From an uncultured Saprospiraceae bacterium (GTDB lineage: Bacteria > Bacteroidota > Bacteroidia > Chitinophagales > Saprospiraceae), in contig CALLWB010000013.1 in the NCBI GenBank assembly GCA_938016265.1, forward strand, positions 62,001 through 126,000: a DNA stretch of 64,000 nt, written 5' to 3'. Position numbers and translations under genes: made by a program. The stretch's first letter is position 1, and every line of letters starts with the position of its first letter. Below the pieces are notes generated by a model that saw only the letters and a list, made by a program, of their open reading frames with translations, was not told where the DNA came from and did no database searches. This document shows positions 1,402 to 49,617 of the stretch, piece by piece.

Positions 1402-3030
1402 ATGAATACAAAGCTCGCATTTGTATTAACATTCCTACTATGGGTTATTATCAACCCAATAAAAGGGCAATCCGGCCAATTTGATCTTCGATTTAGTGTC
1501 TCCGGTATCGACTGTATAGCTAATACAATATTGATAGATATTGAAATTCGTGCAGAGAGTTCGGCTACTCAATTTAATCTTGCTGATCAGAATTATCGAT
1601 TTTCCTTTAATAGGAATGCCCTTGCCAATCCCCAAATAAATCAAGAGTTGACAATTAGTGGAATAGTTAGTACAGTAACTCCCATAGCCACTTCTAGTTT
1701 TTATGGAACACACACTATGACTGGATCAGGAGATACTGTCGTTTCGTATAATATTGAATTGGTAGGGGGAGATGGTTACCCACTAGATGATGAAACTTAT
1801 GTCAAAGTTGGGCGTTTTCAATTCGATATTCTTGATGTTAATGAATGTGTTGACCTAAAATTTCATAGTGCGGACCCAATTATCCATCCTGTAACTTTTA
1901 TTAGTGAAAAATTTGAATCCAATTTGTATCCTGCATTAGAAGGGAGTTTTAATAATTATTCTCAATGCCTCATAGAAGCTTGTATCAATCAAAATGTGAT
2001 TGCTGAGAATGATTCTGTATCAACAGTCCCCGGACAAATTTTTAGTTTTAATGTTTTACAAAATGATTCGGATCCGGAAAATATGCTGGATGTTTTATCT
2101 ATAAACTTGGTTTCTGTTCCTCCTGTTACTGAAGGAACTACCTTTCTGGATCAAGCAACTGGTATAGTTTATTTTATTCCTGCTGCTAATTTCCTAGGAG
2201 ATGTAACTCCTTTTCAATACGAAATTTGTGACATTAATACCTCTTTTCCTTCAAGTTATGGAAATGGTAATACTGCTTCTCCATCTAACCCGGTACCGCC
2301 TATTGGGTCAATTCCTGGTCCTGGTATAACCTGTGATACCGCATTTATCTTCATTCACGTAAATTATGAAACACTAATTGCAAGTTTTAGGGCGATTCTT
2401 GAAGGACCCTATGAGAAAATGTTAGGATCGATGAATGATTATCTGAGGAAGGATAGTCTTATCCCATTAAATGAGCCTTATTCGGCAGTTAGTTCCTATG
2501 TTGGACAAGAGACTACTACCTATCATATGCTGGATTCATTAGAAATAATAGATTGGGTACTCGTTGAATTGAGAGACAAAAATGACAGCCTACAAGTAGT
2601 GACCTCCAAAGCAGTTCTGCTAGATAAAAATGGATGGATAAGGGGTCTGGATGGGTCCTTAGAATTGATGTTTCAAACGCCACCAGATAACTATTTTGTA
2701 AGTATAGTACATCGTAATCATTTGAATGTTTTGACTAAGAGTGCACATCCACTTAGCATGACAAGAGATACCATCGACTTTACAATTGGGACAACAATTT
2801 TAGCTGGCCAAGGAGATGCAAGAAGATTTTTTGATGGCAAATACATGTTGTGGACAGGAGATATTGATTATTCCAACAGTATTGATGGGGGAGATAGGAG
2901 TATATCCTGGAATACTAGAAATCAACTAGGTTATATTATAAGTGATTGTACCTTAAATGGGAAGTCCGATGCTGGAGATCGTAGTAAAATTTGGAATAAT
3001 AGAAATAAAACTATACAATATCAGTTCTAA
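1402..3030 (+). CDS. Exported surface protein with C-terminal dockerin-like module (paralogue 1)
   Basis: A 542-residue protein with a clear signal peptide (cleavage likely after INPIKGQ). Residues about 24-180 form a probable beta-sandwich. Residues about 195-320 resemble a cadherin/Ig-like 'tandem' domain, with NDSV, NVLQNDSDPEN and a TGIVYFIP strand. Residues about 329-542 are the module shared with the genes at 3130 and 6352: LEGPY, LNEPYSA, IDWVLVELRD, VHRNHL, then two 12-residue loops starting at residues 487 and 515, each followed by DRS and WN-RN. The loops place Asp/Asn/Ser at positions 1, 3, 5, 9 and 12 as in calcium-binding dockerin or EF-hand loops. No standard T9SS tail is seen. 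Function unknown; a structural or adhesive surface protein is inferred. Confidence 0.8.
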   Translation: MNTKLAFVLTFLLWVIINPIKGQSGQFDLRFSVSGIDCIANTILIDIEIRAESSATQFNLADQNYRFSFNRNALANPQINQELTISGIVSTVTPIATSSFYGTHTMTGSGDTVVSYNIELVGGDGYPLDDETYVKVGRFQFDILDVNECVDLKFHSADPIIHPVTFISEKFESNLYPALEGSFNNYSQCLIEACINQNVIAENDSVSTVPGQIFSFNVLQNDSDPENMLDVLSINLVSVPPVTEGTTFLDQATGIVYFIPAANFLGDVTPFQYEICDINTSFPSSYGNGNTASPSNPVPPIGSIPGPGITCDTAFIFIHVNYETLIASFRAILEGPYEKMLGSMNDYLRKDSLIPLNEPYSAVSSYVGQETTTYHMLDSLEIIDWVLVELRDKNDSLQVVTSKAVLLDKNGWIRGLDGSLELMFQTPPDNYFVSIVHRNHLNVLTKSAHPLSMTRDTIDFTIGTTILAGQGDARRFFDGKYMLWTGDIDYSNSIDGGDRSISWNTRNQLGYIISDCTLNGKSDAGDRSKIWNNRNKTIQYQF

Positions 3031-3129
3031 ATAAATGTAATAATTAAAACGCTTTTTCTTATTTTGCGTTAGATCTGCTTGAAAATAAATTATTACCATC
3101 CTCCATTTAAGTCTTAACTAACAATTACC

Positions 3130-4737
3130 ATGAATTCAAAAATTTACAATTCAATATTAATAATTTTTCTTTTACTAAGTATTTCAGTTTCAACATTTGG
3201 TCAGAATGGAACCTATGATTTGAGGTTCAAAATTCATCAAGTGGATTGCTCCGCGATGAAGGTATATTTTGATGTGGAATTGAGAGCAGAAGATGCCGCA
3301 ACAGAGTTCAATCTTTCCGATATGAATTTTAGATTTTCCTTTGGAACGTCTTTAGGAAATCCGCAAATTGATCAGGAGCTTCTTATCAGTGGCATTGTAT
3401 CGACCAATTCGCCTCCTACTACTAGTTTGTACGAAACACATACCTTGACTGGAAGCGCAGATTCTGTTATTTCTTATAATATTACACTTAGTGGTGGTGA
3501 TGGATACCCTGTAGATGCAGTCAATTATATACCAGTTGGTAGATTGTCGCTTGATATTCTTGATCCGACCGGATGTATCTTTTTGAGATGGCATACAAAA
3601 GCACCAGAAGATTTCCCTCCTACATTTGTAGGAGAAAAGTTTAACAATGCGCTATATATCGGCAATGAGGCTTCCTACGGTAACTACAACCATTGTACAA
3701 TGTGCGGAACAGCTCCAGTCACTGTAGATGATACAGATACCACTCCTCCAGGTGTTTTAACCCCTGAATGTATATTGGCAAACGATTCAGACCCAGATGG
3801 TCCACTTGATCAAAATTCCGTTCAGATTATTACTAATATTCCAGTATCAGAAGGTACCGCTGTCTATAACGCGACTACAGGATGCATTGATTTTACTTCA
3901 GATCCTGGATTCACAGGACCTATCACGACAATTGTCTATGAGGTTTGTGATTTTGGGGTACCAATACCAGCTACAAAAGGAGACAGCAACTCAGTTCCTG
4001 TATCCTCTCCTGACCCGATGGATTCACCAATTCAATCTACGCCATTGTGTGCTACTGGAAATCTTGATATAGATGTACAAGCAGGAGGAGTTGCGCTTTC
4101 TCCAAACTTGATGCTGCAAGGGCCTTATGACTCCGGAACTGGAGAAATGTCCTCTGCAAGTCTTAGTGGGCAAGGATATGTCCCCCTAAACCAACCATAT
4201 TCAGCGTTAGGAATACATTCTGGTTCGGAGGCAGTAACTATAGGAGTACTAAATGCCTATTCTATTGTTGATTGGGTACTAGTAGAATTGAGAGATGGTG
4301 CAGACAATACTAGTATTTTGGAAACAAGAGCAGCATTACTTCACCCTACAGGTTTGGTAACGGATGTTGACGGTATTAATCCAGTTGCTTTCACATTGGC
4401 TTCAGGAAGCTACTATGTTGCTGTAAGACATAGAAACCATCTTCCAGTTGCTAGTTTAAATACATTTGCAATGTCTTCAACAACGACAACAGTCGACTTC
4501 AAGTCCATCCCACTTTTCGGAACAAATGCTGCAGCAATTGTTGCTGGAGTACAGATATTGTGGTCTGGAAATGCTCAAATAGATGGAAGTATAGATGCAG
4601 CCGACAGAAGTGCTACTTGGAATTCCAGAAACCAAGCTGGATATTTAGAATCGGATTGTGATCTTGATGGCTTGACAAGTGCTTCCGATAGAAGTATCAC
4701 TTGGAACAATAGAAATATCAGTGCACAGCTCCCCTAA
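3130..4737 (+). CDS. Exported surface protein with C-terminal dockerin-like module (paralogue 2)
   Basis: A 535-residue paralogue of the preceding gene along its whole length. It has a signal peptide ending near STFGQ; an N-terminal beta-rich domain with the shared pattern YDLRFK..VDC..VYFDVELRAEDA..FNLSD; an Ig-like middle with ANDSDPDGP; and the module at about 327-535. Its two loops start at residues 481 (N-x-Q-x-D-G) and 509 (D-x-D-x-D-G), each ending in D-R-S and WN-RN, 28 residues apart exactly as in paralogue 1. The first loop has Asn and Gln at positions 1 and 3, so calcium binding there may be weaker. The gene follows paralogue 1 after 99 bases and ends at a strong terminator, so the pair is probably a tandem duplication. 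Confidence 0.8.
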   Translation: MNSKIYNSILIIFLLLSISVSTFGQNGTYDLRFKIHQVDCSAMKVYFDVELRAEDAATEFNLSDMNFRFSFGTSLGNPQIDQELLISGIVSTNSPPTTSLYETHTLTGSADSVISYNITLSGGDGYPVDAVNYIPVGRLSLDILDPTGCIFLRWHTKAPEDFPPTFVGEKFNNALYIGNEASYGNYNHCTMCGTAPVTVDDTDTTPPGVLTPECILANDSDPDGPLDQNSVQIITNIPVSEGTAVYNATTGCIDFTSDPGFTGPITTIVYEVCDFGVPIPATKGDSNSVPVSSPDPMDSPIQSTPLCATGNLDIDVQAGGVALSPNLMLQGPYDSGTGEMSSASLSGQGYVPLNQPYSALGIHSGSEAVTIGVLNAYSIVDWVLVELRDGADNTSILETRAALLHPTGLVTDVDGINPVAFTLASGSYYVAVRHRNHLPVASLNTFAMSSTTTTVDFKSIPLFGTNAAAIVAGVQILWSGNAQIDGSIDAADRSATWNSRNQAGYLESDCDLDGLTSASDRSITWNNRNISAQLP

Positions 4738-4774
4738 ATAAAAGAAAGGGAAGTATTTAAGAATCAATCAAACG

Positions 4775-4810
4775 TCGTCTATTAAATTTATTTTAATAGA
4801 CGATTTTTTT
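4775..4810 (+). terminator. Rho-independent terminator after paralogue 2
   Basis: A perfect 12-base inverted repeat (4775-4786 with 4792-4803, core CGTCTATTAAA) with a 5-base loop, followed by seven T. The hairpin and its flank resemble the terminator at 6300-6329. Confidence 0.85.
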
Positions 4811-4916
4811 GTTCAATATTTTACCTTTCAATTTATATAACAGGATTAGTATTTTTTTATTTAAATATATTTCTTCCTAGTAATGATCTAGTGTGCAGAC
4901 TACTATAGTTGTGGCT

Positions 4917-4945
4917 TTGTGGTAATGTTTATTTGTTTAACTTTG
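4917..4945 (+). promoter_or_regulatory. Promoter of the collar-like gene
   Basis: TTG at 4917-4919, 18 bases, then TAACTTTG at 4938-4945, an exact match to TAnnTTTG. Initiation near 4952 excludes the upstream GTG (4919) and ATG (4925) starts and supports the ATG at 4982. Confidence 0.6.
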
Positions 4946-4981
4946 AGTAGATTTTTGTTTATATCAAAAAAATGCATTCTA

Positions 4982-6154
4982 ATGATAAAGTCTATTTTTT
5001 TATTCTATTTTCTATTGAGTTTTATCGTTGCTTTTTCTCAAGGAGTATCCATTAATAACACAGGAGCAACCCCTAACTCAAATTCGATCCTAGATGTTTC
5101 ATCCGATGATAAAGGTGTTTTTTTTCCTAGATTAACCACTATCGCTAGAACAACCTTAGGGAATTCTCTTGTGAATACCGATAATGGTATGTTTGTTTAT
5201 GATAAAGATTTATTGATTTTCTTTTATTGGGATGGAATTCAATGGGTTCAAGTTGGATCAGGAGCAGGTAGCGACGATCAAAATCTTACCGGAGCAACAT
5301 TAACTGGAACCTCTTTACAAATTCAAATAGAAGACGGAAATTCAACAACAGTAGACTTATCAACTCTTCAAGATGGCGTAAATGATGCAGATTCCAACCC
5401 TAACAACGAAATAGAATTGCCAATTGGAGGAACACCTGGACAAATTTTATCTACAAATGGAACCGGAGTTTATTCATGGATAGATGATGAAAACGGAACA
5501 GATAATCAAAACATAAATGGGTCTGGTTTATCTGGGACAATATTATCAATAGGCATAGAAAATGGAAGCAATGAAACAGTTGATTTACAAAGTATTATTC
5601 CAACGGGACTAGTTGGGGCTTTTAATTTGAATACATGTCCTTCGGGGTGGATAAAAGCTGATGGACAAAATGGTACTCCTGATTTAAGGGGAGAATTTGT
5701 GAGGGGGTTAGATGATGGTAGAGGAATTGATATTGGAAGGGCCTTAGGCTCTTGGCAAGATGAAGAAATACAATCTCATAGTCATACAGTAGATCCTCCC
5801 TCCGCGACTACCATTTCATCTGGATTGCATAGCCACAGCATTGATCCTCCCTCCACGACTACCTCTGTTAATGGTAGCCATCGGCACTTTACACCAACAA
5901 TAAGAAGAGCATTTTACGACCAAACAGGAGGTGCTGGTGGCTATGGTCAGGACACCTCCTTAGGTCCAGGTCCTAATGTTTATACAAACACCACTGGAGA
6001 TCATACGCATACGTTAAATATTGCCGCTTTTAACTCCTCTTCCGAAGGCAGTCATTCACACACCTTTAATATTGTACAGTTTGATTCAGGGAATAGTGGA
6101 GGAGCAGAAACTCGACCAAGAAACGTAGCACTGCTATATTGTATTAAACAATAA
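4982..6154 (+). CDS. Exported phage-tail-collar-like, His-rich protein
   Basis: A 390-residue exported protein. The start at 4982 is chosen because it gives a compact signal peptide (MIKSIFLFYFLLSFIVAFSQ) and lies downstream of a promoter match. The N-terminal part (SINNTGATPNSNSILDVSS) is a type common at the start of Bacteroidota surface proteins with fibre-like repeats. Two short repeats (TGATLTGTSLQIQIEDG and SGLSGTILSIGIENG, each followed by VDL) suggest a beta-helical or fibre stalk. The C-terminal part has a tail-collar-like signature (GAFNLNTCPSGWIKADGQ, then TPDLRGEFVRGLDDG) and at least five HxH motifs (HSH, HSH, HRH, HTH, HSH). In phage tail fibres such motifs bind iron along a trimeric needle. 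A surface fibre or adhesin is inferred. No phage genes are nearby. Confidence 0.75.
   Translation: MIKSIFLFYFLLSFIVAFSQGVSINNTGATPNSNSILDVSSDDKGVFFPRLTTIARTTLGNSLVNTDNGMFVYDKDLLIFFYWDGIQWVQVGSGAGSDDQNLTGATLTGTSLQIQIEDGNSTTVDLSTLQDGVNDADSNPNNEIELPIGGTPGQILSTNGTGVYSWIDDENGTDNQNINGSGLSGTILSIGIENGSNETVDLQSIIPTGLVGAFNLNTCPSGWIKADGQNGTPDLRGEFVRGLDDGRGIDIGRALGSWQDEEIQSHSHTVDPPSATTISSGLHSHSIDPPSTTTSVNGSHRHFTPTIRRAFYDQTGGAGGYGQDTSLGPGPNVYTNTTGDHTHTLNIAAFNSSSEGSHSHTFNIVQFDSGNSGGAETRPRNVALLYCIKQ
5792..5863 (+). repeat. Intragenic direct repeat in the collar-like gene
   Basis: GATCCTCCCTCCGCGACTACC at 5792-5812 recurs at 5843-5863 with one mismatch, 51 bases (17 codons) apart and in frame. It repeats an HSH-x-x-DPPS-x-TT peptide unit and points to recent unit duplication. 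Confidence 0.8.
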
Positions 6155-6299
6155 ATCTGAATAGTTCCTTCCTTCTACTTACGCAAAACATTTTAACGTT
6201 TATAGTAAGTGTAACAACCAACTTCAATTGGGAACAGAAAGGAAAATCAGAACTCAGCTTCCTTAAATATTAAAAACGAAGGATTTAAGAATAAACGTC

Positions 6300-6329
6300 G
6301 TCTATTAATGTAATTAATAGACTTTTTTT
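6300..6329 (+). terminator. Rho-independent terminator after the collar-like gene
   Basis: A perfect 10-base inverted repeat, GTCTATTAAT (6300-6309) with ATTAATAGAC (6313-6322), three-base loop, followed by seven T. The stretch before it (ATTTAAGAAT..AACGTCGTCTATTAA) is nearly the same as that before 4775. Confidence 0.85.
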
Positions 6330-6351
6330 ATTTACGCTCTAATTTAACATT

Positions 6352-8223
6352 ATGCACGCTTCTCTACCTAGGCTCAAATTAATTTTGTTGTTGGTCGTAA
6401 TTGGCTCTACGGCATTTATCTCCGACCGCCTTTTGTCAATTATTGATCTGCCTAGTTTGGACAATTATGCCAATCAACCCATTCCAGGATATATAAATAA
6501 AGACAATACACCCAATAACAATCAAATCACTGATATTGGGGCAACATTAGGGCGAGTGTTATTCTACGACAAAAAACTTTCTACAAGTAACACTATAGCT
6601 TGTGCTACTTGCCATCAACAAGAATTTGCGTTTAGTGATCCTGCAATTTTAAGTACTGGTGTCAATGGCACCACAGATAGACATTCCATGCGATTGGTCA
6701 ATGCCAGATTTGCAAATGAAGACAATTTTTTCTGGGATGAACGAGCAAATTCTTTGGAAGAACAAACCACTCAACCAATTCAGGATCATTCTGAAATGGG
6801 ATTTAGTGGAGCGAACGGAGCTCCTGGGATAGACTCATTACTCAGAAAAATGGAAGAGACAACTTATTATGCTGATCTATTTACTGCGATGTTTGGAGAT
6901 GCTACGATTACAGAGCAAAGAATGCAACTAGCAATGGCTCAGTTTATCAGAAGTATTCAATCGTTTGATGCTAAGTTTGATGCAGGATTAGCTCAGGTAG
7001 GAAACCTAAATCAACCCTTTCCAAATTTTACTCCGCAAGAAAACACGGGGAAAAATTTGTTCCTCGCTCCTCCACAATTTAATGGGGCTGGTCAAAGAGT
7101 CGGTGGAGGATTAGGATGCCAAGGCTGTCATGCCGCACCAGAATTTGATATAAATCCAAACTCAGGAAATAATGGTCTGATCGTCTCAACAACAGGTGCA
7201 CCGGATCCTACAAATACAAGGTCGCCCTCACTTCGTGATATTTTTAATGCGAATGGAGATCTAAACTCACCGCTCATGCACATTGGATCTGCTCCTGGGG
7301 GAGGTGTATTTGATTTTAATGATGCATTAGATCATTATAATGTAATCCCAAACAATGTTCCTAATCTTGATCCAAGACTGAGACCTAATGGTAATCCACA
7401 ACGCCTAAACATCACTGCGCAGGAACGGCAAAACATCACTGCATTCATGCATACCTTATCGGGAACAAACGTTTACACCGATCTCCGATGGTCAGATCCA
7501 TTTGATGCCAACGGCAATTTGACGGTAGTGAATGCTCCTCAAGCATATGTGATGGCTGACATCCGTGTACTGTTAGAAGGGCCATTTAATCCCGCTAATA
7601 ATCTAATGAACGATGATTTGCGCTCTGACAATGAGCTACCTGCCAATGAACCATATACTGGTTTGGGTTTTATACAGGTTAATAACCCTGGAGGTGAAAC
7701 AATAGTTGATGCCACCGTTTTTAATACAACTGGACCAAATGCAATTTTAGACTGGGTTTTTGTTGATCTGTGCGATAAGAACGATCCAACAAATATCATT
7801 GCAACAAGATCAGCTTTGCTGAAAAGAAACGGTAGAGTAGTCGATACCGATGGTGTTTCTTTATTGAGATTCGATAATGTTGGCCCTGATGACTATTATG
7901 TAGGAATAAGGCACCGAAATCACCTTAGAGTACATTCTGCAAACACTATTGGCCTTTCCACCACTATAAATGGCGTGGTAGATTTTATTCGTAATGTTAA
8001 TCCTATTGCAACACCAGGAAATCAGAACACAGTTGGCAATAGACTGGTCCTTTGGTCAGGGGATGGATCTTATGATAACGCAATAGATGCAGCAGACAGA
8101 AGCGCTACCTGGAATTTACGCAATACAGGAGGCTATCTAGAAGCAGATGTAAACATGGATGGTTTTTGCGACGCGGAAGATCGCAGTATTACTTGGAATA
8201 ATAGAAACAAGACTGGTATGTAA
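6352..8223 (+). CDS. Di-haem cytochrome c peroxidase fused to the dockerin-like module (paralogue 3)
   Basis: A 623-residue protein with an N-terminal hydrophobic signal sequence. Residues about 50-395 form a di-haem cytochrome c peroxidase/MauG-family domain: CATCH at 84-88 followed by QQEFAFSD, FWDERANSLEEQ, and CQGCH at 256-260. This family reduces peroxide or oxidises substrates outside the cytoplasm using two c-type haems. Residues about 404-623 are the same C-terminal module as in the genes at 1402 and 3130 (LEGPF, NEPYTG, LDWVFVDL, RHRNHL), with loops beginning at 571 and 599, both with Asp/Asn/Ser at the dockerin positions. The fusion suggests the module is a generic surface-attachment or targeting unit. 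The gene ends before a strong hairpin. Confidence 0.88.
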   Translation: MHASLPRLKLILLLVVIGSTAFISDRLLSIIDLPSLDNYANQPIPGYINKDNTPNNNQITDIGATLGRVLFYDKKLSTSNTIACATCHQQEFAFSDPAILSTGVNGTTDRHSMRLVNARFANEDNFFWDERANSLEEQTTQPIQDHSEMGFSGANGAPGIDSLLRKMEETTYYADLFTAMFGDATITEQRMQLAMAQFIRSIQSFDAKFDAGLAQVGNLNQPFPNFTPQENTGKNLFLAPPQFNGAGQRVGGGLGCQGCHAAPEFDINPNSGNNGLIVSTTGAPDPTNTRSPSLRDIFNANGDLNSPLMHIGSAPGGGVFDFNDALDHYNVIPNNVPNLDPRLRPNGNPQRLNITAQERQNITAFMHTLSGTNVYTDLRWSDPFDANGNLTVVNAPQAYVMADIRVLLEGPFNPANNLMNDDLRSDNELPANEPYTGLGFIQVNNPGGETIVDATVFNTTGPNAILDWVFVDLCDKNDPTNIIATRSALLKRNGRVVDTDGVSLLRFDNVGPDDYYVGIRHRNHLRVHSANTIGLSTTINGVVDFIRNVNPIATPGNQNTVGNRLVLWSGDGSYDNAIDAADRSATWNLRNTGGYLEADVNMDGFCDAEDRSITWNNRNKTGM

Positions 8224-16502: not shown

Positions 16503-19500
16503 TTATCTCAACAAGGTTACATCACCAGTTAATGTTTCCAAAGTTCCGTCTCCTAGACGTAGAACAAAATGGTAAATGTAAACGTCTTGTGGTAATTCTA
16601 CAGATTCATATTTACCATCCCAGCCCATCGAGTCTTCATTGTTAAATACCATTTCTCCCCAACGATCGAATATTTTGAATTCTTCGATCAGAATATTACC
16701 ACTGTATTCTAGTGTGAAAATATCGTTAAGGTTATCACCATTAGGAGAAAATGCATTTGGAACACCATATTGTGGCGGCACTACTTCAACAACTGCAGTT
16801 GCAGAAGCGTCACATCCACTAACAGAAGTACCTGTCACGGTATAAGTAGTAGTTTCAGGAGGAGAGACGATCGTGGTTAATCCAGAAGTAGCCAAAATCC
16901 CAATATTCGGTGACCAGTCTAACGATACAGAGCCTACTGGGTTGGAGCCTAAAGGTGTAATTATTGCTGTCAATGCCGCAGTGTCTCCTAATGCAATTGT
17001 AGTATTTGCAGGGTCGATATCCAATTGGAAACCACCATTTACTGAAACTGTAACACTATCAATATCTGCACAATTTGAATTGGCATATTGCACATAGTAA
17101 GTAGTTGTCTGATTGGGCGAAGCGACAGGGTCTGCACAAGTTACACAGCTTAAACTACCCGCAGGCGACCATGTAAAAGTAGTTCCGTCTGTTCCAGTAG
17201 CGCTCAATGACGTACTTTCCCCTTCACAAATTGTAATATTCTGACTGGCAGAAACTGTTGGTATTGGTAGTACTTCGACCGTTACCATTGTTTCTGAGGT
17301 ACAGTTTCCGTTGGTCGTATTTGCTGTGACAGTATAAGTGGTAGTTACTGTAGGAGAGGCTGTTGGATTCGGAGAATTTGGATTGTCCAAACCAGTAGCC
17401 GGTGTCCAAGTATAAGTAACGCCAGGAGAAGGATTTACTCCAATAGAAACCGCATCACCAATACAGATCGTCTGTGTTGGTTGTACGATAAGACCTGCAC
17501 CGCTATTTACGGTTACTGTCATAGAATCAATTGTCTCACATGGTCCATCCGTAAGATAGACATAGTAGGTCGTAGTAGTATCTGGTGTTGCTGTTGGATT
17601 TTGAATAAATGGATCATCAAGTGTTGCACTTGGAACCCAGAGGAAATCTCCAGCATCCTGAGTTATTGCTGTAAGCTGCACAGATTCTCCTTCACATAAA
17701 GATTGATCTGGTCCTGCATCTACAGTGATACCCGGGCTAATTGTTATTGTTACGGATTCGGTTACTACGCAATTTCCATTACCATCAGAACCAGTCACTG
17801 TATAAGTAGTTGTTTCTGTTGGAACAGCTAAAGGATTGGCAACATTTGGATTGCTTAATCCTGTAGTTGGTGTCCAGGTGTAGGTTGCTCCATTTGGAGT
17901 AGCCCCCAAGATTACTGCTTCGCCTGCGCAAATTGTCGTATCCGCAATAAGATTCATAGGAACACCAACATCAACAAGCACATGTATGCTATCAGAAGCA
18001 AAACAGCCTTCGACTTCATAGCTTACAAAGAAAGTAATCGATGTATCCGGCATCACTGGCGGGTTTTGCAGTGTAGAGTCTACTATATATTGACCAGGAG
18101 TCCAGGCATAAATTCCTCCCTCCTCATTCGGTTCTGATTGTAATTGAACAAGAGAAGCCGTTGCACAAACCCCAATTGTATCACCTAGTGGTATATCTAT
18201 ACTTATATCAATGACTTCAATAAACAGGGAGTCAAAATCATTGCAGCTAGCAACACCCGCTGTCAACACATACCAAGTACTACTGTCTGGAGAAACCATT
18301 GGGTTGAAAATAGTATCGTTTGAAATACCGGTATTCGGATTCCATAAATAATCTATACCACCATAACCTTCTAATTGGATAGAATCTCCTTTACAAATAG
18401 TCAGTGTGTCTCCTGAGCTAGCACCAAGGCCAAATTCAATTTCCACTGCGTCGTGTATCTCTACAACAGCAGAATCATAAACAAATGTACCACAATTGGT
18501 AATTTGCTGTAGGTAAATTATTGCAAACTCATCTCCTTCCGTTATTCCATCTAATACCGGAGAAAATGGAACATCAATAGAGGTAGTGCCAGGCAGAAAT
18601 ACTATAGAATCAGGAAGCAAATTGTAATCAACTCCATTTGTTGCTGAACCAGATGGATCTAAATGAATAACTGTAGTATCAGACTGAGGAGAATCCAATT
18701 CAATGGTAATAGAACCCTCGGCGCATCCTTCAATTGTAAATTCCAAATCTGGGCTAAAATCGAAGGTTGGGACAATTGTGGCCACACCACTTGTCAAACT
18801 ATTGGCTTCTATAAATACGCCAGAATCAAATGCACCATCTCCTACATCAGCAATAACTAATTTTAGGTGGTAAGTGTCACATGGGATAACTGTAGCTTGT
18901 GCTTGTAATACTGTTGTAAATGCATCATATTCTACCGTTACACCTCCAGTATTATCTCTGTAGTATTGGGTATTTGTTATTGCATTTATCGTATTAATCG
19001 AAACCGCAGTTGCTGAACCTGGTAGTAAAGCAATATTTTTTTCTCCTACAATACCTGGTCCTGAAATGAAGAAACCAAAAAGATCATTAAATCCAATACT
19101 ATTAGGCGGAGCCCATTCTGGATATTCTTCTGAACCCATTACGTAGTTGAATGAAAGTTGGCTTGTAGCAGCATAAATATCAAACTCAAGAATACAAGCA
19201 TCTTCTGATAAATCAGGAGCTGCCAATACATCAATAAGTGGATCTCCTGGTTGACCAAGATCAGTACTTGTTCCTCCAATTGTATTGGGGCCTTCTGCTT
19301 CTGCCGCTTCTCCAGTACATAAAACGATCCCGCTCTGAATTCCAATTTCTGAAAGTCCAGGAACATTAAAGACACCATAGGCTAGTGCATCACAGGTTAG
19401 GGTAACATTTGAGATAATTACTTCTGGAGAAGAAATATTTTCTATCAATACGGAATCTGGAACTCCAACTGTAATGTCTATTGGAGTAGGAATAGGGCAA

Positions 19501-20711
19501 GGATCCACCGTGCATTCCCAACTACCTGACCAACCGCTTCCTTGTAGAAGGAAATTGGAGGTAAAGGCTACCGTCAAGCAACCACTGCCAGCAATAATTG
19601 TGGCACCAGCACCAGAACCTGAAACCTGATCAATTAATGGGGAAAAGACATCTGGTCCATCATAGAAAGATAGAATGTCAATACCTGCTTGTGTATCATA
19701 GTTGTCAAGTGTCAAAATAATACACCCATTCGGTACATTTGGACAAATACTATAGTTCCAATTTTCATTATTTAAATATCCTGTGGTGTCTGAGCCGCTA
19801 TCAAAAATATCTCCCATACAATCAAAAACATCAGGAGGCATGATCCCACTACCGTCTGGAGAACAAGGGGCTGTAGTACATTCCCAAGTTGCTACCCAAC
19901 CTGCAGAACTAACAGATGCATCAGAGCTAAATACAACAGTAAGACATCCACTATTCGCTTCAATTGTTTGATTTCCTCCTATACCAGTTATTTGACCTAC
20001 AATCGGCGACAATGCGTTTGGACCGTCATGGAAAGTCAAAAAATCTGAATTGGTTTCAATATCGAAGGTCGTAATGTCAAAAACGATGCAAGAATGTACA
20101 TCGTTTGGACATATAGAATACGTTAAAAGTTCATTTGGTCCGTAATTTGCCATTGGTCCGCCGCTATCATATAGCGTTCCGGTACATGCCGAAGACATAC
20201 CATTTATCATATTGACAGGAGGGAAAAACTCCTCCATGCAGAGCTGGAAGTCACCTTCATTTGTTCCTGCAGCTGCCCAATCGTTGACTCGAATCCAATA
20301 TTGAGTACCAGGATCTAAACCGGTAACACTTAACAAAACATCAGTAGCTCCAGCAAGAGAAGAAGCGCAATCATACTCTACAATGACAGGGCATGCGCCA
20401 CGATAAATAGCAACCTGAGGTTGCATCATGGTATTACCGTTAATTTCGATGTCATAGCTTCCAGAGCCGCCTAGTGGAGTTACAAAAGTAAACCAGACGT
20501 CTCGTTGGTCTCCGTTCCAAGGTGGGGCACAACTAGTAGGAGCACCAAGCCCAGCAGTCATAGTGGCTGCAACATTGGTGTATTCATCTATGGCTGAACA
20601 AAAATTGTCAGGAGTACTAATAAAAATAGAACCTTGACAATCATCGTTTGCCGGTTGCGCAATTGATGTCATTGAAAAGGCTAAGAAAATGAAAATCAAT
20701 AAGTTCCGCAT
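16503..20711 (-). CDS. Giant T9SS-exported multidomain adhesin with gliding-type C-terminal domain
   Basis: 1402 residues. Signal peptide 1-18. About 20-165 looks like a pre-peptidase C-type beta domain. Two CUB-like domains follow (about 170-285 and 295-400, each with SICPN, FHDGP or FYDGP, and GCLTVxF). About 410-650 is a choice-of-anchor-L-type domain (FNYVMGSEEYPEW, FNDLFGFFISGPG). About 655-755 resembles Calx-beta. Seven Ig/PKD-like repeats of about 70-85 residues follow (TICxGxxVxL, YxWTPxTGLxNP, TTTYTV). The C-terminal 85 residues are the gliding-associated domain (VPNAFSPNGDNLNDIF, FDRWGEMVF, GWDGKY, DVYIY), the type B T9SS sorting signal. It is expected at the cell surface, acting in adhesion or gliding. 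The PorP/SprF gene lies just upstream on the same strand. Confidence 0.92.
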   Translation of the reverse strand: MRNLLIFIFLAFSMTSIAQPANDDCQGSIFISTPDNFCSAIDEYTNVAATMTAGLGAPTSCAPPWNGDQRDVWFTFVTPLGGSGSYDIEINGNTMMQPQVAIYRGACPVIVEYDCASSLAGATDVLLSVTGLDPGTQYWIRVNDWAAAGTNEGDFQLCMEEFFPPVNMINGMSSACTGTLYDSGGPMANYGPNELLTYSICPNDVHSCIVFDITTFDIETNSDFLTFHDGPNALSPIVGQITGIGGNQTIEANSGCLTVVFSSDASVSSAGWVATWECTTAPCSPDGSGIMPPDVFDCMGDIFDSGSDTTGYLNNENWNYSICPNVPNGCIILTLDNYDTQAGIDILSFYDGPDVFSPLIDQVSGSGAGATIIAGSGCLTVAFTSNFLLQGSGWSGSWECTVDPCPIPTPIDITVGVPDSVLIENISSPEVIISNVTLTCDALAYGVFNVPGLSEIGIQSGIVLCTGEAAEAEGPNTIGGTSTDLGQPGDPLIDVLAAPDLSEDACILEFDIYAATSQLSFNYVMGSEEYPEWAPPNSIGFNDLFGFFISGPGIVGEKNIALLPGSATAVSINTINAITNTQYYRDNTGGVTVEYDAFTTVLQAQATVIPCDTYHLKLVIADVGDGAFDSGVFIEANSLTSGVATIVPTFDFSPDLEFTIEGCAEGSITIELDSPQSDTTVIHLDPSGSATNGVDYNLLPDSIVFLPGTTSIDVPFSPVLDGITEGDEFAIIYLQQITNCGTFVYDSAVVEIHDAVEIEFGLGASSGDTLTICKGDSIQLEGYGGIDYLWNPNTGISNDTIFNPMVSPDSSTWYVLTAGVASCNDFDSLFIEVIDISIDIPLGDTIGVCATASLVQLQSEPNEEGGIYAWTPGQYIVDSTLQNPPVMPDTSITFFVSYEVEGCFASDSIHVLVDVGVPMNLIADTTICAGEAVILGATPNGATYTWTPTTGLSNPNVANPLAVPTETTTYTVTGSDGNGNCVVTESVTITISPGITVDAGPDQSLCEGESVQLTAITQDAGDFLWVPSATLDDPFIQNPTATPDTTTTYYVYLTDGPCETIDSMTVTVNSGAGLIVQPTQTICIGDAVSIGVNPSPGVTYTWTPATGLDNPNSPNPTASPTVTTTYTVTANTTNGNCTSETMVTVEVLPIPTVSASQNITICEGESTSLSATGTDGTTFTWSPAGSLSCVTCADPVASPNQTTTYYVQYANSNCADIDSVTVSVNGGFQLDIDPANTTIALGDTAALTAIITPLGSNPVGSVSLDWSPNIGILATSGLTTIVSPPETTTYTVTGTSVSGCDASATAVVEVVPPQYGVPNAFSPNGDNLNDIFTLEYSGNILIEEFKIFDRWGEMVFNNEDSMGWDGKYESVELPQDVYIYHFVLRLGDGTLETLTGDVTLLR

Positions 20712-36756: not shown

Positions 36757-38679
36757 TTGCAAATTTCAAAATGGACGATTTACTGTGGCTTGTTCTTTAT
36801 GGCTTGTTTGCTGATTTACTGCAATCAACCTTCTAGCTCTAGCATCTCCAACAACAATAATCAATTTCTCAATCTACATGATACAGTAGACTACGTAGGT
36901 ATGCAAACCTGTCGTTCCTGTCATGCAAACATTTATGATACCTACATTCAGACAGGAATGGGCCAATCCTTCGACCATGCGACCAAAGAAAAAAGTGCCG
37001 CCGTTTTTGACAAACACGCCGTTGTCTATGACAAAGACCTTAATTTCTATTACCATCCGTTTTGGAAAGATTCATCCCTCTACATTCAGGAGTACCGCCT
37101 GGAAGGAAAAGATACTACGCATTCAAGAATAGAAAAAATCAGTTACGTCATCGGCTCCGGACAGCATACCAACTCGCACTTGATCAATGAAAATGGCTAT
37201 GTCTACCAAGCCCCCATCACCTTCTACACACAAGACGGCAAATGGGATATGGCTCCTGGTTTTGAAAAAGGCGCTAGCTCCAGATTCTCAAGAATCATCG
37301 CCACCGAATGCATGACCTGTCATAATCATCTGCCAAAACAAACTCCAGGTTCTCAAAACAAATATGAGGAAGTCCCACAAGGAATTGAATGCGAACGTTG
37401 TCATGGCCCGGGAGAACTCCACGTAAAAGAGAAAATGGCAGGAAACATCGTTGATACTTCAAAATATGTCGATTACACCATCGTCAATCCAGCTAATCTC
37501 CCAGTAGAACTGGAAGTGGATATCTGCCAGCGGTGTCATCTTCAGGGAACGGCCGTGCTGAACGAAGGGAAAGACTTCTACGATTTTCGTCCTGGGATGC
37601 CGCTCAATGAAGTCATGAATGTTTTTTTACCAAGATATTCCAATAGTCACGACAAGTTTATCATGGCCTCTCAAGCAGACCGGATGCGTCTAAGTAAGTG
37701 TTTTACCGTAGGAAAAATGAGCTGTACCAATTGCCACGATCCACATAAATCGGTAAAATCGACTGCTATCGAAACGATGAATCAGGCTTGCCTCAATTGC
37801 CATAATGTTCCAAGAGAGGAAGTATGCCCAATTCCAATGGCAGAACGCAAACTAAAAAATGATGATTGTACTAGTTGCCACATGCCGAAAACTGGGAGCA
37901 TCGATATACCGCACGTTCGGATTACCGATCATTATATTGGTAAACCGATTGCAGAGGAAGAAAAGGAAGCGATTGAAGAGTTTATTGGTCTTGCCTGTCT
38001 AACGGATGATGCTCCGTCTGATCTGCTGATGGCGCAGGGGTATATCGCTTTGTACGATAAATTTGTGCCAGAAGCTAAAATGTTGGATTCTGCACGTTAT
38101 TTCCTTGATTTATCGACGGCATCTACCAAGGAGCGATTTAAGACGGAAGTTCATTATTCCTTTACCAGGAATGATTATGCACAAATTGTAAAACTGTCTG
38201 CTAGTGTTTCAGCAGAAGCGATTGATGATGGATGGACTGCTTACCGGATAGGGGAGAGCTACTCCAGTTTGAATCAATCAGATCGGGCATTGTCTTATTT
38301 TCAGAAGGCGGTGGAGCTGCGACCTTATAACCTTGACTTTAATAACAAGCTAGGCACCACTTACTTGAAGTTGAAGAATATTGATGCTTCAAAAAAAGTG
38401 TTTGATTTCATTCTGTCTGAAAACAAAAAACAACCAGTCGCACTAAACAACCGTGGATTCATCTACCTCCTGGAAGGAAACGCAACAGAAGCAGGAAACC
38501 ACTACGAAAACGCACTAAAACTTGATCCCGACTATGAAAAAGCCTGGATCAATAAAGTTGGATTGCTGGTAGCCACTAGAAAAATGCCAGCAGCAATGAA
38601 GCTTTTAAATGAATTGGCAAAGAGATTTCCTCAAAACCAAGAAATAAAGCAAATAAAAAAACGATTATCTAATTCATAA
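36757..38679 (+). CDS. Seven-haem cytochrome c with C-terminal TPR repeats
   Basis: 640 residues. Seven CxxCH haem motifs: CRSCH (52-56), CMTCH, CERCH, CQRCH, CTNCH, CLNCH and CTSCH, spread over residues about 50-375, in the arrangement of cytochrome c554-like exported redox proteins. Residues about 480-640 are TPR repeats (AYRIGESYSSLNQSDRALSYFQKAVELRPYN and similar), probably for protein contacts. The start is an unusual TTG at 36757: the frame is closed upstream by TAA at 36745 and there is no ATG before the hydrophobic leader. The leader ends at Cys22, so a lipoprotein is possible. The substrate is unknown. The MltA gene follows after 13 bases. Confidence 0.85.
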   Translation: MQISKWTIYCGLFFMACLLIYCNQPSSSSISNNNNQFLNLHDTVDYVGMQTCRSCHANIYDTYIQTGMGQSFDHATKEKSAAVFDKHAVVYDKDLNFYYHPFWKDSSLYIQEYRLEGKDTTHSRIEKISYVIGSGQHTNSHLINENGYVYQAPITFYTQDGKWDMAPGFEKGASSRFSRIIATECMTCHNHLPKQTPGSQNKYEEVPQGIECERCHGPGELHVKEKMAGNIVDTSKYVDYTIVNPANLPVELEVDICQRCHLQGTAVLNEGKDFYDFRPGMPLNEVMNVFLPRYSNSHDKFIMASQADRMRLSKCFTVGKMSCTNCHDPHKSVKSTAIETMNQACLNCHNVPREEVCPIPMAERKLKNDDCTSCHMPKTGSIDIPHVRITDHYIGKPIAEEEKEAIEEFIGLACLTDDAPSDLLMAQGYIALYDKFVPEAKMLDSARYFLDLSTASTKERFKTEVHYSFTRNDYAQIVKLSASVSAEAIDDGWTAYRIGESYSSLNQSDRALSYFQKAVELRPYNLDFNNKLGTTYLKLKNIDASKKVFDFILSENKKQPVALNNRGFIYLLEGNATEAGNHYENALKLDPDYEKAWINKVGLLVATRKMPAAMKLLNELAKRFPQNQEIKQIKKRLSNS

Positions 38680-46258: not shown

Positions 46259-48541
46259 TTATTTAGATAAAATCATTTTTTTATGAATGAATTGGTCTCC
46301 TGCTTTTATTTGTATGAGATACATACCAGAGGTTGCTTGATCCAATTGGATTGCCTGCACAAAATTGCCACTGACCACTCCAGTAGTTTCCTGATAGATG
46401 ATTCTTCCAGAAAGGTCATAAATGGAAATCTCTGTTTCGTAGGTACCATCGACTTTATAAGCTAAAGAAAAGTTTCCAGAATTTGGATTAGGTTGAATCG
46501 TGAACTCAGATAGATTGTTTAGTTCCTCTTGGCCGCTACATACCTCAAAAGTGATGTCAGCATCATGACTGGAAGGACAGCTGGAAGTAAAAGAATAAGA
46601 AACGGTATAAATGGTGGCTGGAACAGCAGAACTTATATCAATAATACCAGTTGTAGGATCAATCACCAGTCCATTGGTAGCAGTAAAAATACCACCAGCT
46701 GCAGCAATAAAGTCTGGAACGGGAGCATCCAATTGCGTGCAGTAAGTTGCTTGAGGATAGGTAAATGTTGCATCTTCCAATACAGAAACATTAACTGCTG
46801 CCTCTGTCCTTGCACTAACGCAACTAGTAGAGGGTTCTTGTATCTCCCAATCATAAAAGTAATAGTAATAACCAGGACCAAAGTTGGAATCATGAATCGA
46901 TACAACTCCCATAACATCATATGGATAGGCTGTTGTACCATTCGTACGTTGTAGCCTTGGACTTGCATAGCCATGCTCGTTTATGTTCATGTTTTCATTC
47001 GTTGTCAAGATATAGTTATTGCCGGGTGGAATACTGAAATTTAGGTTCACTCTGCTTTCGCCTACTGGAACAATTGCGTTTTTTGTCAATAGAACATTCC
47101 CATTTGCATCTTGAAGTTCAATGATTCTCATTGCTTCGGTATCGGTATATACCTTTACACTTTTTAACAAAAATTCAGAATTCACATTAAAGAACAATTG
47201 ACCATTTGTAGTACCACTTGAATAACTTGATGTACCGTGCCATTCAAAAGCGCCACCTGAATGTTGAGGGCCCACCACCTCCTTCATATGTTCTACATAA
47301 AAAGAGGTTGAACTTCCTAGTAATGGAGTCTGGTAACTTGTACCAGTGGCAATGGGTGAACTTCCAGTTAAGGAACTAAACCAACTGTAAGTGCCGGTAC
47401 CCGGATTATTAACTGTAAGCGTAGTATTTGTGTTTTCGCAAATGTTTGCTGGAGCGACCACAGGATCTGTAGCATCTAGTACTGACAGGGTAAAGGCATT
47501 AGAAATTGCTGGACCACAAACAGTCGTTATGGTACAGGTGTAATTGCCAGGATTAGTTACTGTAATAGAATAGGTGGTGCTACCGTTAGACCAAAGGTAA
47601 TCTGATCCAATAAGCGGAACATTTAATTCGGTGGATTCTCCAGCACAAATTTGATTTGATGTATTGGAAGTGATTGTTGGAGCTATGCTACTCGATTGTT
47701 GAGTCAATGTTACATCTGCCACCATTAAATTGTCAGTATCATCTTCCTCTACCAATACATTGTGAGGATCTACTTCTACAACAATCTTATAATCGCCATT
47801 GCAGGTGCCTGGAGGTATTTCGATATACATTCCGTCAAGGTAATAATGATAGATATCCGTCCATCCTGCAGAAATTCCCTGATTGGTCAGGCCACAGCTG
47901 TATTGGCCTCCTCCAAGTCCATAGTTTGGCGAATTGGTGGTTAATATATTATCATTATCATCGCGACATTGGCCGTTGTAATATTGGCAACTACCAAAAT
48001 CCATGATGCAAAATCCGAGTTTTGCGCCATCCCCAATTATTGGCCAGTTGAGCGGGGAAACGCCAGGTTGTTCAATTCGTAGTGTATATACGCCCCAGTC
48101 GTCAAAGTGCATATGACCATGTGTTTGATGGTAGGTCATTGAGCCGGCCCATCGGTCATAATAATCCATGCTGCCGCTTGCTTTTTTCTGATAAATCCGC
48201 TGTTTTACTAGTTGACGAGGTACAGAACCGTCAGGGCAGGAAGATAATCCAGAAGCGTTGTAGATGGTATCTTGACCGCACAAAAAATAGTTAGTGGCTA
48301 AGACTCTTAATGGACCATGTCCGACATTTGGAGTGGAAACAGAAACCTCATACCTGCCTGGATATTCGAAGTTTTCATTTGGGTCTACTAGCAAATCATA
48401 ACTCAATTTAAGATTCGGTAAAAGATCACATTCATTAGTTCCATCTTTGCAGTCACAGCCAGATGCATCGGATAAATTACAGGGTTGGGAAAATAGATAG
48501 GTGGAAAGCAGGAGAATGGGTAGAATAAAGATGATTCTCAT
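46259..48541 (-). CDS. T9SS-exported lysyl-oxidase-like copper protein
   Basis: 760 residues from the ATG at 48541, which gives a normal signal peptide (MRIIFILPILLLSTYLFSQ); a longer frame would begin within the upstream gene. Residues about 40-270 look like a lysyl oxidase domain: LLPNLKLSYDLLVD, copper site YHQTHGHMHFDDW (His138, 141, 143, 145), and GISAGWTDIYHYYLDGMYIEI, where a Tyr could form the quinone cofactor. A CARDB-like stretch (VEVDPHNVLVEEDDTDN) follows, then Ig-like domains, a PCMD-like region and a type A T9SS tail (FTIQPNPNSGNFSLAY, KKMILSK). Lysyl oxidases oxidatively deaminate lysine side chains and cross-link proteins; activity here is inferred. Confidence 0.85.
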   Translation of the reverse strand: MRIIFILPILLLSTYLFSQPCNLSDASGCDCKDGTNECDLLPNLKLSYDLLVDPNENFEYPGRYEVSVSTPNVGHGPLRVLATNYFLCGQDTIYNASGLSSCPDGSVPRQLVKQRIYQKKASGSMDYYDRWAGSMTYHQTHGHMHFDDWGVYTLRIEQPGVSPLNWPIIGDGAKLGFCIMDFGSCQYYNGQCRDDNDNILTTNSPNYGLGGGQYSCGLTNQGISAGWTDIYHYYLDGMYIEIPPGTCNGDYKIVVEVDPHNVLVEEDDTDNLMVADVTLTQQSSSIAPTITSNTSNQICAGESTELNVPLIGSDYLWSNGSTTYSITVTNPGNYTCTITTVCGPAISNAFTLSVLDATDPVVAPANICENTNTTLTVNNPGTGTYSWFSSLTGSSPIATGTSYQTPLLGSSTSFYVEHMKEVVGPQHSGGAFEWHGTSSYSSGTTNGQLFFNVNSEFLLKSVKVYTDTEAMRIIELQDANGNVLLTKNAIVPVGESRVNLNFSIPPGNNYILTTNENMNINEHGYASPRLQRTNGTTAYPYDVMGVVSIHDSNFGPGYYYYFYDWEIQEPSTSCVSARTEAAVNVSVLEDATFTYPQATYCTQLDAPVPDFIAAAGGIFTATNGLVIDPTTGIIDISSAVPATIYTVSYSFTSSCPSSHDADITFEVCSGQEELNNLSEFTIQPNPNSGNFSLAYKVDGTYETEISIYDLSGRIIYQETTGVVSGNFVQAIQLDQATSGMYLIQIKAGDQFIHKKMILSK

Positions 48542-48561
48542 TGACGTTTGTTTAGGGGTTC

Positions 48562-48569
48562 CAAAAATA
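48562..48569 (-). promoter_or_regulatory. Promoter -7 element of the lysyl-oxidase-like gene
   Basis: The minus strand reads TATTTTTG, exact TAnnTTTG match, 20 bases before the ATG at 48541. It supports the shorter start. Confidence 0.5.
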
Positions 48570-48621
48570 TATTTTGCGAGTATAGATTTAGACAGGATTA
48601 TATTGTAATATACGATAATTT

Positions 48622-49617
48622 TTATGAATATGCTACTAGCAAATTGCATCCCCGTATATCGCTCTGATCTACTCTTCCCAGCACTTCAAACGAATCATCT
48701 TCTTTTTTTCTACCTAGATCATCTGTTGCAATAAATGAACAGGAATCTATATTTGATAAATCTATAATGTTTATTGCTCCAGCTTTAGAATTCTTTACAT
48801 AAGAAAAAGGGTCAGTAACGTCACGTACAAGCATACGCATTGTTGGAGAAGAGTTGAAAATACCGTCCCCTTTTGAATAGAACTGAGACATTAACTCCGT
48901 CATTCCATATTCTGAGTTAATTTTTTGGAGATGGAAGTATTTAGAGAGCTGTTGGTGCAATTCTGCTCTTGTCAACTCTTTTCTACGTCCTTTCATACCT
49001 CCAGTTTCCATGATGTTGATGTTTGCCAGATTGGTAGGGTGGAGTTCTCCAAGTTCAAGCAAAGCAAAACTTACTCCTAGCAACAAAACGGGGATTTGTC
49101 TGGTTGTACATTTTAACAACTCATCAATTAAACCAGGATAATCATCCAGATAAAAACCACTTTCCTCATATTTTGATTTTTTAATAAAATGATCTGCCAT
49201 TCGAACTAAAGACGATCCTTTTCGTTCTAGATAAGAAGGAAGCAAAGCGAAGATGGCAAAATCTTCTATCGGACCATACTGCGATTCGAAACCGAGCACA
49301 GTAGTTTTGTCATACAACTCCAACGATCTGACGTAGTGTTTGCTAGTCGTGGAGCTGGTAGTACCGCTGCTGGTAAATACCGTTTCTGCTTCCCAGGTAC
49401 CTGTTTTAACTTCATGCGTTTTAAAAAACTGAATAGGGAGGAACGGTATTTGTGTTAGTTTTTTTACTTGATTTACATTAATATTAAGCAATTTAATGTA
49501 TTCATTGTATAGTGGATTATGCTCTGCTTGATAAACAAAAACTTGAATAGCTAGTTGCTCAAAGTCAAAAGTGGAAGAAGAAAATATTTGCTGTATCAAT
49601 TGGTCTCGCACCAACAT
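48622..49617 (-). CDS. LuxE/PaaK-family acyl-activating protein
   Basis: 331 residues. It matches the acyl-protein synthetase (LuxE) pattern: IPFLPIQFFKTHEVKTG, the nucleotide-binding Ser/Thr-rich loop VFTSSGTTSSTTSKHYV, and a later NSEYGMTELMSQFY, equivalent to the adenylate-forming core motif. Such proteins activate an acyl group as adenylate and transfer it to a cysteine or carrier. No lux genes are nearby. In Bacteroidota these stand-alone members are often found near surface-glycan genes; the role here is unknown. Confidence 0.82.
   Translation of the reverse strand: MLVRDQLIQQIFSSSTFDFEQLAIQVFVYQAEHNPLYNEYIKLLNINVNQVKKLTQIPFLPIQFFKTHEVKTGTWEAETVFTSSGTTSSTTSKHYVRSLELYDKTTVLGFESQYGPIEDFAIFALLPSYLERKGSSLVRMADHFIKKSKYEESGFYLDDYPGLIDELLKCTTRQIPVLLLGVSFALLELGELHPTNLANINIMETGGMKGRRKELTRAELHQQLSKYFHLQKINSEYGMTELMSQFYSKGDGIFNSSPTMRMLVRDVTDPFSYVKNSKAGAINIIDLSNIDSCSFIATDDLGRKKEDDSFEVLGRVDQSDIRGCNLLVAYS

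Follow-up and report, generated by a model that had tools for sequence, protein, structure and literature searches.

Three genes on the plus strand of the window, a stretch of 64,000 nucleotides from the genome of an uncultured Saprospiraceae bacterium (contig CALLWB010000013.1), encode proteins that differ in their N-terminal parts and share a C-terminal module. The original prediction, made from the nucleotide sequence alone, had proposed the three open reading frames (ORFs), starting at 1402, 3130 and 6352, together with a common dockerin-like module at their ends. The ORF list and our alignment bore out both. Here we describe the likeness of this module to the X-module/dockerin dyads of cellulosomes and a predicted cohesin-fold domain at the start of two of the proteins. 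The features are listed below in window positions.

1402 to 3030, plus strand: ORF of protein 1 (542 amino acids, aa), with a signal peptide-like start (judged by eye), a cohesin-fold domain, a Big_9 domain and an X-dockerin-like module
1468 to 1980, plus strand: N-terminal cohesin-fold domain of protein 1, the stretch modelled (AlphaFold2, Foldseek, VIA-align)
1987 to 2235, plus strand: Big_9 (immunoglobulin-like, Ig-like) linker of protein 1 (PF17963, 38.5 bits against a cut-off of 23.6)
2386 to 3027, plus strand: X-dockerin-like module of protein 1, with its beta-sandwich core at 2386-2847 and its loop pair at 2848-3027
2860 to 2895, plus strand: calcium-type loop 1 of protein 1, DIDYSNSIDGGD, with a predicted helix after it (model residues 474-482)
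2944 to 2979, plus strand: calcium-type loop 2 of protein 1, DCTLNGKSDAGD, with a predicted helix after it (model residues 502-510)
3130 to 4737, plus strand: ORF of protein 2 (535 aa), whose architecture matches that of protein 1
3202 to 3705, plus strand: cohesin-like N-terminal domain of protein 2, a homologue of the domain modelled in protein 1 (53% identity, 222 bits)
4108 to 4734, plus strand: X-dockerin-like module of protein 2, with loops at 4570-4605 and 4654-4689
6352 to 8223, plus strand: ORF of protein 3 (623 aa), a di-haem cytochrome c peroxidase/MauG-like enzyme with the module at its end
7561 to 8220, plus strand: X-dockerin-like module of protein 3, with loops at 8062-8097 and 8146-8181

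Protein 3 matched PF03150 at 133 bits and contains two CxxCH motifs, CATCH at 6601 and CQGCH at 7117. The Pfam scan matched neither of the C-terminal tails of the type IX secretion system (T9SS), PF18962 and PF13585, in the three proteins.

The three modules comprise 209–220 residues and are C-terminal; those of proteins 2 and 3 are 40–41% identical to that of protein 1, and 62 alignment columns are invariant. An upstream beta-sandwich core, marked by LEGPY, DWVLVELRD and HRNHL, is shared, while the loop pair behind it varies by type, as described below. As had been stated, the two loops are exactly 28 residues apart in all three proteins (starts at residues 487/515, 481/509 and 571/599 in proteins 1, 2 and 3), and RSxxWNxRN follows each of them. 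The Asp, Asn or Ser assigned to loop positions 1, 3, 5 and 12 is present overall, except that position 3 is Thr in loop 2 of protein 1 and Gln in loop 1 of protein 2. Pfam and NCBIfam matched nothing beyond chance over the module in the three proteins; one NCBIfam row (E 0.21) overlaps that of protein 2.

The AlphaFold2 (AF2) model of protein 1, made with 51 sequences, had a mean predicted local distance difference test (pLDDT) score of 78 and a predicted template modelling score (pTM) of 0.57 overall. Within the module, ten-residue means of pLDDT were 87–98 (77 in the last block), and a helix followed each loop, in line with the EF-hand-like pair that a structure prediction had been expected to show. 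In the comparison of model residues 301–520 with known structures by VIA-align, X-module/dockerin dyads were the best matches (4wi0_B, Z 11.5, root-mean-square deviation (rmsd) 3.6, 146/156 aligned). Eight X-dockerin entries (4wi0_B, 4u3s_B, 3kcp_A, 4fl4_I, 5g5d_B, 5m0y_B, 2b59_B and 5k39_B) had Z scores of 10.3–11.5, with rmsd of 3.5–3.9 over 143–149 residues apart from 3kcp_A, which aligned over a longer stretch at rmsd 11.2. Since rows for the Big_9 stretch, which are phage collar proteins, reached Z 10.7–11.0 in the same table, the X-dockerin rows are distinguished by their coverage of the module (model residues 301/302 to 514/520 in seven of the eight), not by Z score alone.

The relationship to dockerins also appeared in profile searches. 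A profile of the loop pair (A9, 19 sequences) gave 49 rows against all PDB sequences, and 20 of the 24 rows with E ≤ 0.03 are chains or dyads that either carry the name dockerin or are taken to be the dockerin side of a cohesin–dockerin entry (including 2b59_B at 5.1e-5, 2y3n_B at 6e-5, 3kcp_A and 5g5d_B). The remaining four were two serine proteases, which ranked first, a hyaluronidase and calmodulin. The alignment of the whole module (A5) retrieved no dockerin from the PDB sequences; the loop pair alone gave them. Dockerin_1 (PF00404) matched 25 of the 51 aligned members of A5 at E ≤ 1 (best 9.7e-5), and the next family matched 4. The dockerin layout seen in the original prediction is thus borne out both at profile level and in the predicted fold. 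According to the model, the module is an X-dockerin-like dyad, in which an Ig-like X-module is packed on the dockerin as one unit. Under the refuting condition set in the original prediction, it does resemble a unit with an assigned function and is therefore less of an orphan than had been proposed.

Our analysis further revealed a domain that the original prediction had missed. The separate AF2 model of the N-terminal domain of protein 1 (12 sequences) had a pLDDT of 91, and rows 1–20 of the Foldseek search with it were all cohesin or cohesin-like (4fl4_K, 1.1e-5). By VIA-align, rows 1–47 were cohesins (best 6kgc_A, Z 13.5, rmsd 2.9, 137/144 aligned), row 48 was 2o4e, which is titled only as a protein–protein interaction module, and the first row of another fold was an integrin (Z 8.6). 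The predicted structure thus suggests that proteins 1 and 2 open with a cohesin jelly-roll fold. The presence of this domain makes the idea of an assembly concrete, since the two proteins carry a cohesin fold in addition to the module.

A profile search of the source genome (7.44 Mb, 146 contigs) found 30 domains of this N-terminal type in 25 ORFs, including one four-fold and one three-fold tandem. A second cohesin-like type (A7), reached via sub-threshold matches to the Pfam cohesin family PF00963, comprised seven domains, two of them in ORFs already counted. Together, the two types amount to 37 domains in 30 ORFs, with weaker PF00963 matches on contigs C21 (19.0 bits) and C103 (17.1 bits) left out. 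The two profiles showed no link to each other, and the A7 profile retrieved no cohesin from the PDB sequences. The end could be read in 28 of the cohesin ORFs (those on contigs C25 and C7 run off their contigs and are excluded, and that on C136 is included): 20 end in PF18962 over cut-off, eight, including proteins 1 and 2, end in the module, and none ends otherwise. The tandem proteins carry four (L312) and three (L325) domains of the N-terminal type followed by PF18962. With several cohesin folds and a surface-anchor tail, they look like scaffoldins. We also observed another dockerin-like stretch in four cohesin proteins with T9SS tails (L267, L073, L243 and L244), which matched PF00404 above the cut-off in L267 (24.0 bits) and below it in L073; the genome thus probably has a second dockerin family.

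We also compared the positions of cohesin and module genes. A module in another ORF was found within 4 kb of 9 of the 25 ORFs with the N-terminal cohesin type (binomial P 0.005, under a null for which contig extents are known in part). After removal of the mutual pairs (proteins 1 and 2, and two ORFs of contig C62), 5 of 21 remained, with P 0.16 for a limit of 4 kb and 0.04 for one of 2.5 kb. Among 60 T9SS tails taken as a control, 6 had a module within 4 kb and 3 within 2.5 kb.

The profile made from the three window modules matched the source genome at least 150 times. The weakest of these matches has an E-value of 1.3e-14, indicating a likeness far beyond chance, and the number is a lower bound, since 150 of 204 candidates were scored and one further module was seen outside the 150. 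The count omits two cut copies of the window genes, one incomplete module (L102) and ten fragments at chance level. That the module is a feature specific to the window was ruled out by its number of copies genome-wide. No more than 30 residues separate 142 of the 150 full modules from the ORF end (141 with the stop codon in view, and L108 at a contig edge). The other eight are internal or near the N-terminus, so the expectation that the module would occur only at C-termini does not hold. A further expectation, that it would never accompany a T9SS tail, agrees with the results: no Pfam T9SS tail was found in the 231 to at least 531 residues that follow the eight internal modules (three of the eight ORFs extend past the sequence read), nor in the window proteins. 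The organism was correctly taken to have a T9SS, as its genome contains SprA, 44 CHU_C matches over cut-off and at least 150 PF18962 tails (150 of 420 candidates scored). By a simple in-house rule, not SignalP, a signal peptide-like start was present in 126 of the 140 module ORFs with a complete 5' end, compared with 1 of 134 internal stretches of the same proteins.

The loop pairs of the 142 C-terminal copies were sorted by a crude rule into 78 of type I (WNxRN), 49 of type II (NNG), two types of four copies each and seven unassigned, six of which resemble type II by eye. The loop spacing was exactly 28 in 65 of the 76 tails called type I. In these 65, Trp17, Asn18 and Asn21 were invariant in both repeats and Arg20 was kept in 64; because type I was defined by WNxRN anywhere in the tail, the invariance of one repeat is partly selected for. 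Within a type, the median likeness was higher for the loop pair than for the core, at 0.53 versus 0.40 in type I and 0.47 versus 0.41 in type II, and the loop pair was the more alike in 90% of type I pairs, a difference inflated by the fact that the types themselves were set from the loop pair. Such likeness is what a receptor shared by the loop pairs would lead one to expect, and is not proof of one. The four copies of type IV (WKxxRS), among them L054, L057 and L062, on contigs C101, C81 and C144, include a DUF1501 protein; two adjoin genes for cohesin proteins with a T9SS tail (C81), and one adjoins a gene with both cohesin and module (C101). This placement hints at type-specific pairing.

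To describe the other parts of the module proteins, we scanned 20 of a random 30 from 100 eligible ORFs (shorter than 1300 aa, with the module starting after residue 250); the ten left out include window protein 2. Seven of the 20 were beta-helix or pectate-lyase-like (four with a carbohydrate-binding module), two were metallopeptidases, three had SprB repeats, of which one also had a beta-helix, and one was a DUF1501 protein. The other eight gave nothing at E 1e-5.

Of 395 Bacteroidota genomes sampled, 49 contained the module core; at most ten candidates were scored per genome, so absences are incomplete. SprA was present in all 49 compared with 254 of the 346 others, and PF00963 in 34 of 49 compared with 94 of 346; the tests of both associations ignore phylogeny. 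Within SprA-positive genomes, PF00963 occurred in 34 of 49 with the module and 91 of 254 others (P 2.5e-5). The difference was not significant in the class to which the source genome belongs (3/11 versus 9/87, P 0.13), and it was present among the SprA-positive genomes of other classes (31/38 versus 84/173, P 2e-4). Two genomes illustrate the arrangement. G357 has a module gene of 388 aa, in whose product a cohesin-like part was detected by the iterated in-house profile only; the gene immediately preceding it, of 274 aa, matches PF00963 (33.8 bits) and PF18962 (30.7 bits), each above its cut-off. In G018, four consecutive genes encode proteins of 1854, 273, 460 and 416 aa. The first has PF18962 (29.5 bits) and, in the genome search, PF00963 (40.1 bits), which the whole-protein Pfam scan did not list; the second has PF00963 (21.6 bits) and PF18962 (15.4 bits), both below cut-off; the third has PF00963 over cut-off (25.9 bits) immediately preceding the module; and the last, which ends the run, carries the module.

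The module also occurs outside the Bacteroidota. Genome scans found 25 copies in Thiofilum flexile DSM 14609 and 2 in Thiolinea disciformis DSM 14473, which we take to be Gammaproteobacteria. Neither genome matched SprA (SprA_N). The module is therefore not limited to T9SS organisms, and the T9SS itself cannot be a requirement for it. The loci from the two species contain 24 distinct cores, of which 21 have at most 129 residues between them and the ORF end and three have more than 500 residues after them, and their loop pair (L268-L280, L199 and L205) is of a different, longer form. Horizontal transfer of the module between these bacteria and the Bacteroidota is possible. Three IMG/VR viral contigs (L131-L133) also encode the module, with loops of the KYTG...NDRD type or related ones; L131 and L132 encode the same protein. 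The module may be genuine phage cargo here, or the contigs may be bacterial DNA binned by mistake.

From these results we propose, with a probability of about 0.72, that the X-dockerin module docks exported proteins onto cohesins anchored by T9SS tails, with proteins 1 and 2 acting as adaptors and protein 3 as a client. The clients, which would be the many proteins with the module at their end, would be exported by Sec and would then fold with calcium, bound by the putative calcium loops. They would dock through the module, in a calcium-dependent manner, to cohesins whose carriers would be fixed to the outside of the cell by the T9SS C-terminal sorting domain, and each loop type may be matched to its own cohesins. 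The proteins with three or four cohesins in tandem would serve as scaffoldins, and proteins 1 and 2, with a cohesin and an X-dockerin at opposite ends, would lengthen the assembly or add branches to it. Protein 3 would bring a di-haem peroxidase-like redox enzyme into it. The original prediction had spoken of an alternative surface-attachment or assembly tag; the latter is the best supported role, and the description of one half of a binding pair suits the module better than that of a replacement for the sorting tail.

Several results weigh against this proposal. The fold of the module was read from the full protein 1 model and not from the module alone, the Foldseek search with that full 520-residue model (pTM 0.57) had no X-dockerin among its top 50 by E-value, and Pfam matched no dockerin in the three window proteins alone. 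The N-terminal domain did not match PF00963 up to E 1, and its profile retrieved no cohesin from the PDB sequences up to E 10; we therefore call it cohesin-fold, and not a proven member of the family. The neighbourhood support in the source genome is weak once the mutual pairs are set aside. PF00963 was not matched in 15 of the 49 module-bearing Bacteroidota genomes. Conversely, two genomes of the same family (G041 and G166) have ten PF00963 matches each (ten candidates scored), and none of the ten candidates scored for the module core contained it; the cohesins of this family may be older than the module or serve other dockerins. Neither Thiofilum (at E ≤ 0.1) nor Thiolinea matched PF00963, and the in-house cohesin profiles gave no match in the loci from the two (194 kb, partly overlapping). 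Either their cohesins have diverged too far for such profiles to recognize, or the module pairs with something else in these species. Finally, the scheme lacks a step that would take clients without a T9SS tail across the outer membrane. To supply it, the X-dockerin might bind the cohesin of a T9SS-tail protein in the periplasm, and the complex would then cross the T9SS translocon and be anchored together. We regard such hitch-hiking as unlikely; if true, one sorting tail would serve many proteins. Because the module is present in Thiofilum without an SprA match, another route for clients must exist at least there.

Two other explanations of the module were weighed. It could be a T9SS C-terminal sorting domain of a new kind, read directly by the translocon and the attachment machinery, as would fit the C-terminal position of 142 of the 150 full copies (one at a contig edge), the presence of SprA in every module-bearing Bacteroidota genome, and the finding that proteins sharing the N-terminal cohesin end in either a T9SS tail or the module. 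However, clade confounds the association with SprA (one family accounts for 14 of the 20 SprA-less genomes shown), and the fold of the module matches X-dockerins. The eight internal copies, with no Pfam T9SS tail in the residues read after them, and the copies in Thiofilum and Thiolinea, where SprA was not matched, led us to reject the module as a T9SS tail, a reading to which we give very little credence. Alternatively, the module could be a stand-alone adhesion or glycan-binding tip domain, in which calcium loops only stabilize the fold and to which the cohesins are unrelated. The genomes without a detectable Pfam cohesin, namely Thiofilum, Thiolinea and the 15 Bacteroidota, are in accord with this, as are the several adhesin-like or carbohydrate-related proteins among the 20 clients scanned. 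Nevertheless, we consider it improbable, as it leaves unaccounted for the near-invariant RSxxWNxRN face in both repeats, the match to the X-dockerin dyad fold, the cohesin folds within the same proteins and the restriction of all 28 readable cohesin ORFs to a T9SS tail or the module at their ends.

A few other genes of the window are of note. The gene between proteins 2 and 3 (4919-6154) is tail-collar-like (a sub-threshold Collar match) with His-rich repeats, and neither the module nor a T9SS tail was matched in it. Two genes on the minus strand encode ordinary T9SS cargo, one with CUB and a CHU_C tail (16503-20711) and one lysyl-oxidase-like with a PF18962 tail (46259-48649). The gene at 36757-38679 encodes a multihaem c-type cytochrome fused to tetratricopeptide repeats, with a sub-threshold likeness to outer-membrane MtrC-type cytochromes.

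Cohesins and dockerins are already known outside cellulosomes. The closest counterparts of the module are the X-dockerin dyads of clostridial cellulosomes (CipA of C. thermocellum and ScaA of A. cellulolyticus; 2b59, 4wi0 and 5g5d), which have the same C-terminal beta-sandwich and two-repeat, loop-helix dockerin. The window modules differ from these in being only 13–19% identical in structural alignments and in having no Pfam match in the three proteins. The host also differs, being Gram-negative and T9SS-bearing, with the module on at least 150 proteins, the 20 scanned including peptidases and SprB-repeat proteins besides carbohydrate-related ones. The cellulosomal combination of a multi-cohesin scaffoldin and a surface anchor is found in L312 and L325, with cohesin as a predicted fold. 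In comparison with the T9SS sorting domains (PF18962 and PF13585), the module is likewise C-terminal, very numerous and found in alternation with them on proteins that share an N-terminal domain; in contrast, it is about three times as long, has no Pfam match and an X-dockerin-like fold, and occurs also internally and in two SprA-less Gammaproteobacteria.

In scale, the system resembles that of Pseudobacteroides cellulosolvens, which has 31 scaffoldins with 78 cohesins, and 212 dockerin ORFs, of which 92 contain X60 (PMC5590126). The two also have in common the use of X-modules and of several dockerin types per genome (PMC5590126). Unlike this clostridial cellulolytic species, the present genome combines 37 cohesin-type domains in 30 ORFs with at least 150 modules, and T9SS tails are the likely anchors. 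The metagenome-assembled genome of the Cloacimonadota member Ca. Stygibacter encodes an inferred scaffoldin, with a conserved C-terminal surface-attachment domain, and dockerin enzymes (PMC8542988). It belongs to another phylum, its modules were detected by InterProScan, it has one large scaffoldin, and no X-module of the present type is described in the passages on it (PMC8542988). Literature searches, in an open-licence collection without most subscription journals, gave no paper seen to describe the module itself. We rate the mechanism as known by fold and layout and the sequence families of both halves as new, with a T9SS anchor and with a host and a scale that were unexpected.

If our proposal is true, a T9SS bacterium has a cohesin–dockerin network at the scale of the largest cellulosomes, which domain libraries missed because both halves have diverged. 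Within a single genome, it would provide a role for at least 150 exported proteins, and would suggest that dockerin-based assembly extends to redox enzymes, peptidases and adhesin-like proteins besides carbohydrate enzymes. It would also raise the question of how proteins with a signal peptide and no T9SS tail get to the cell surface.

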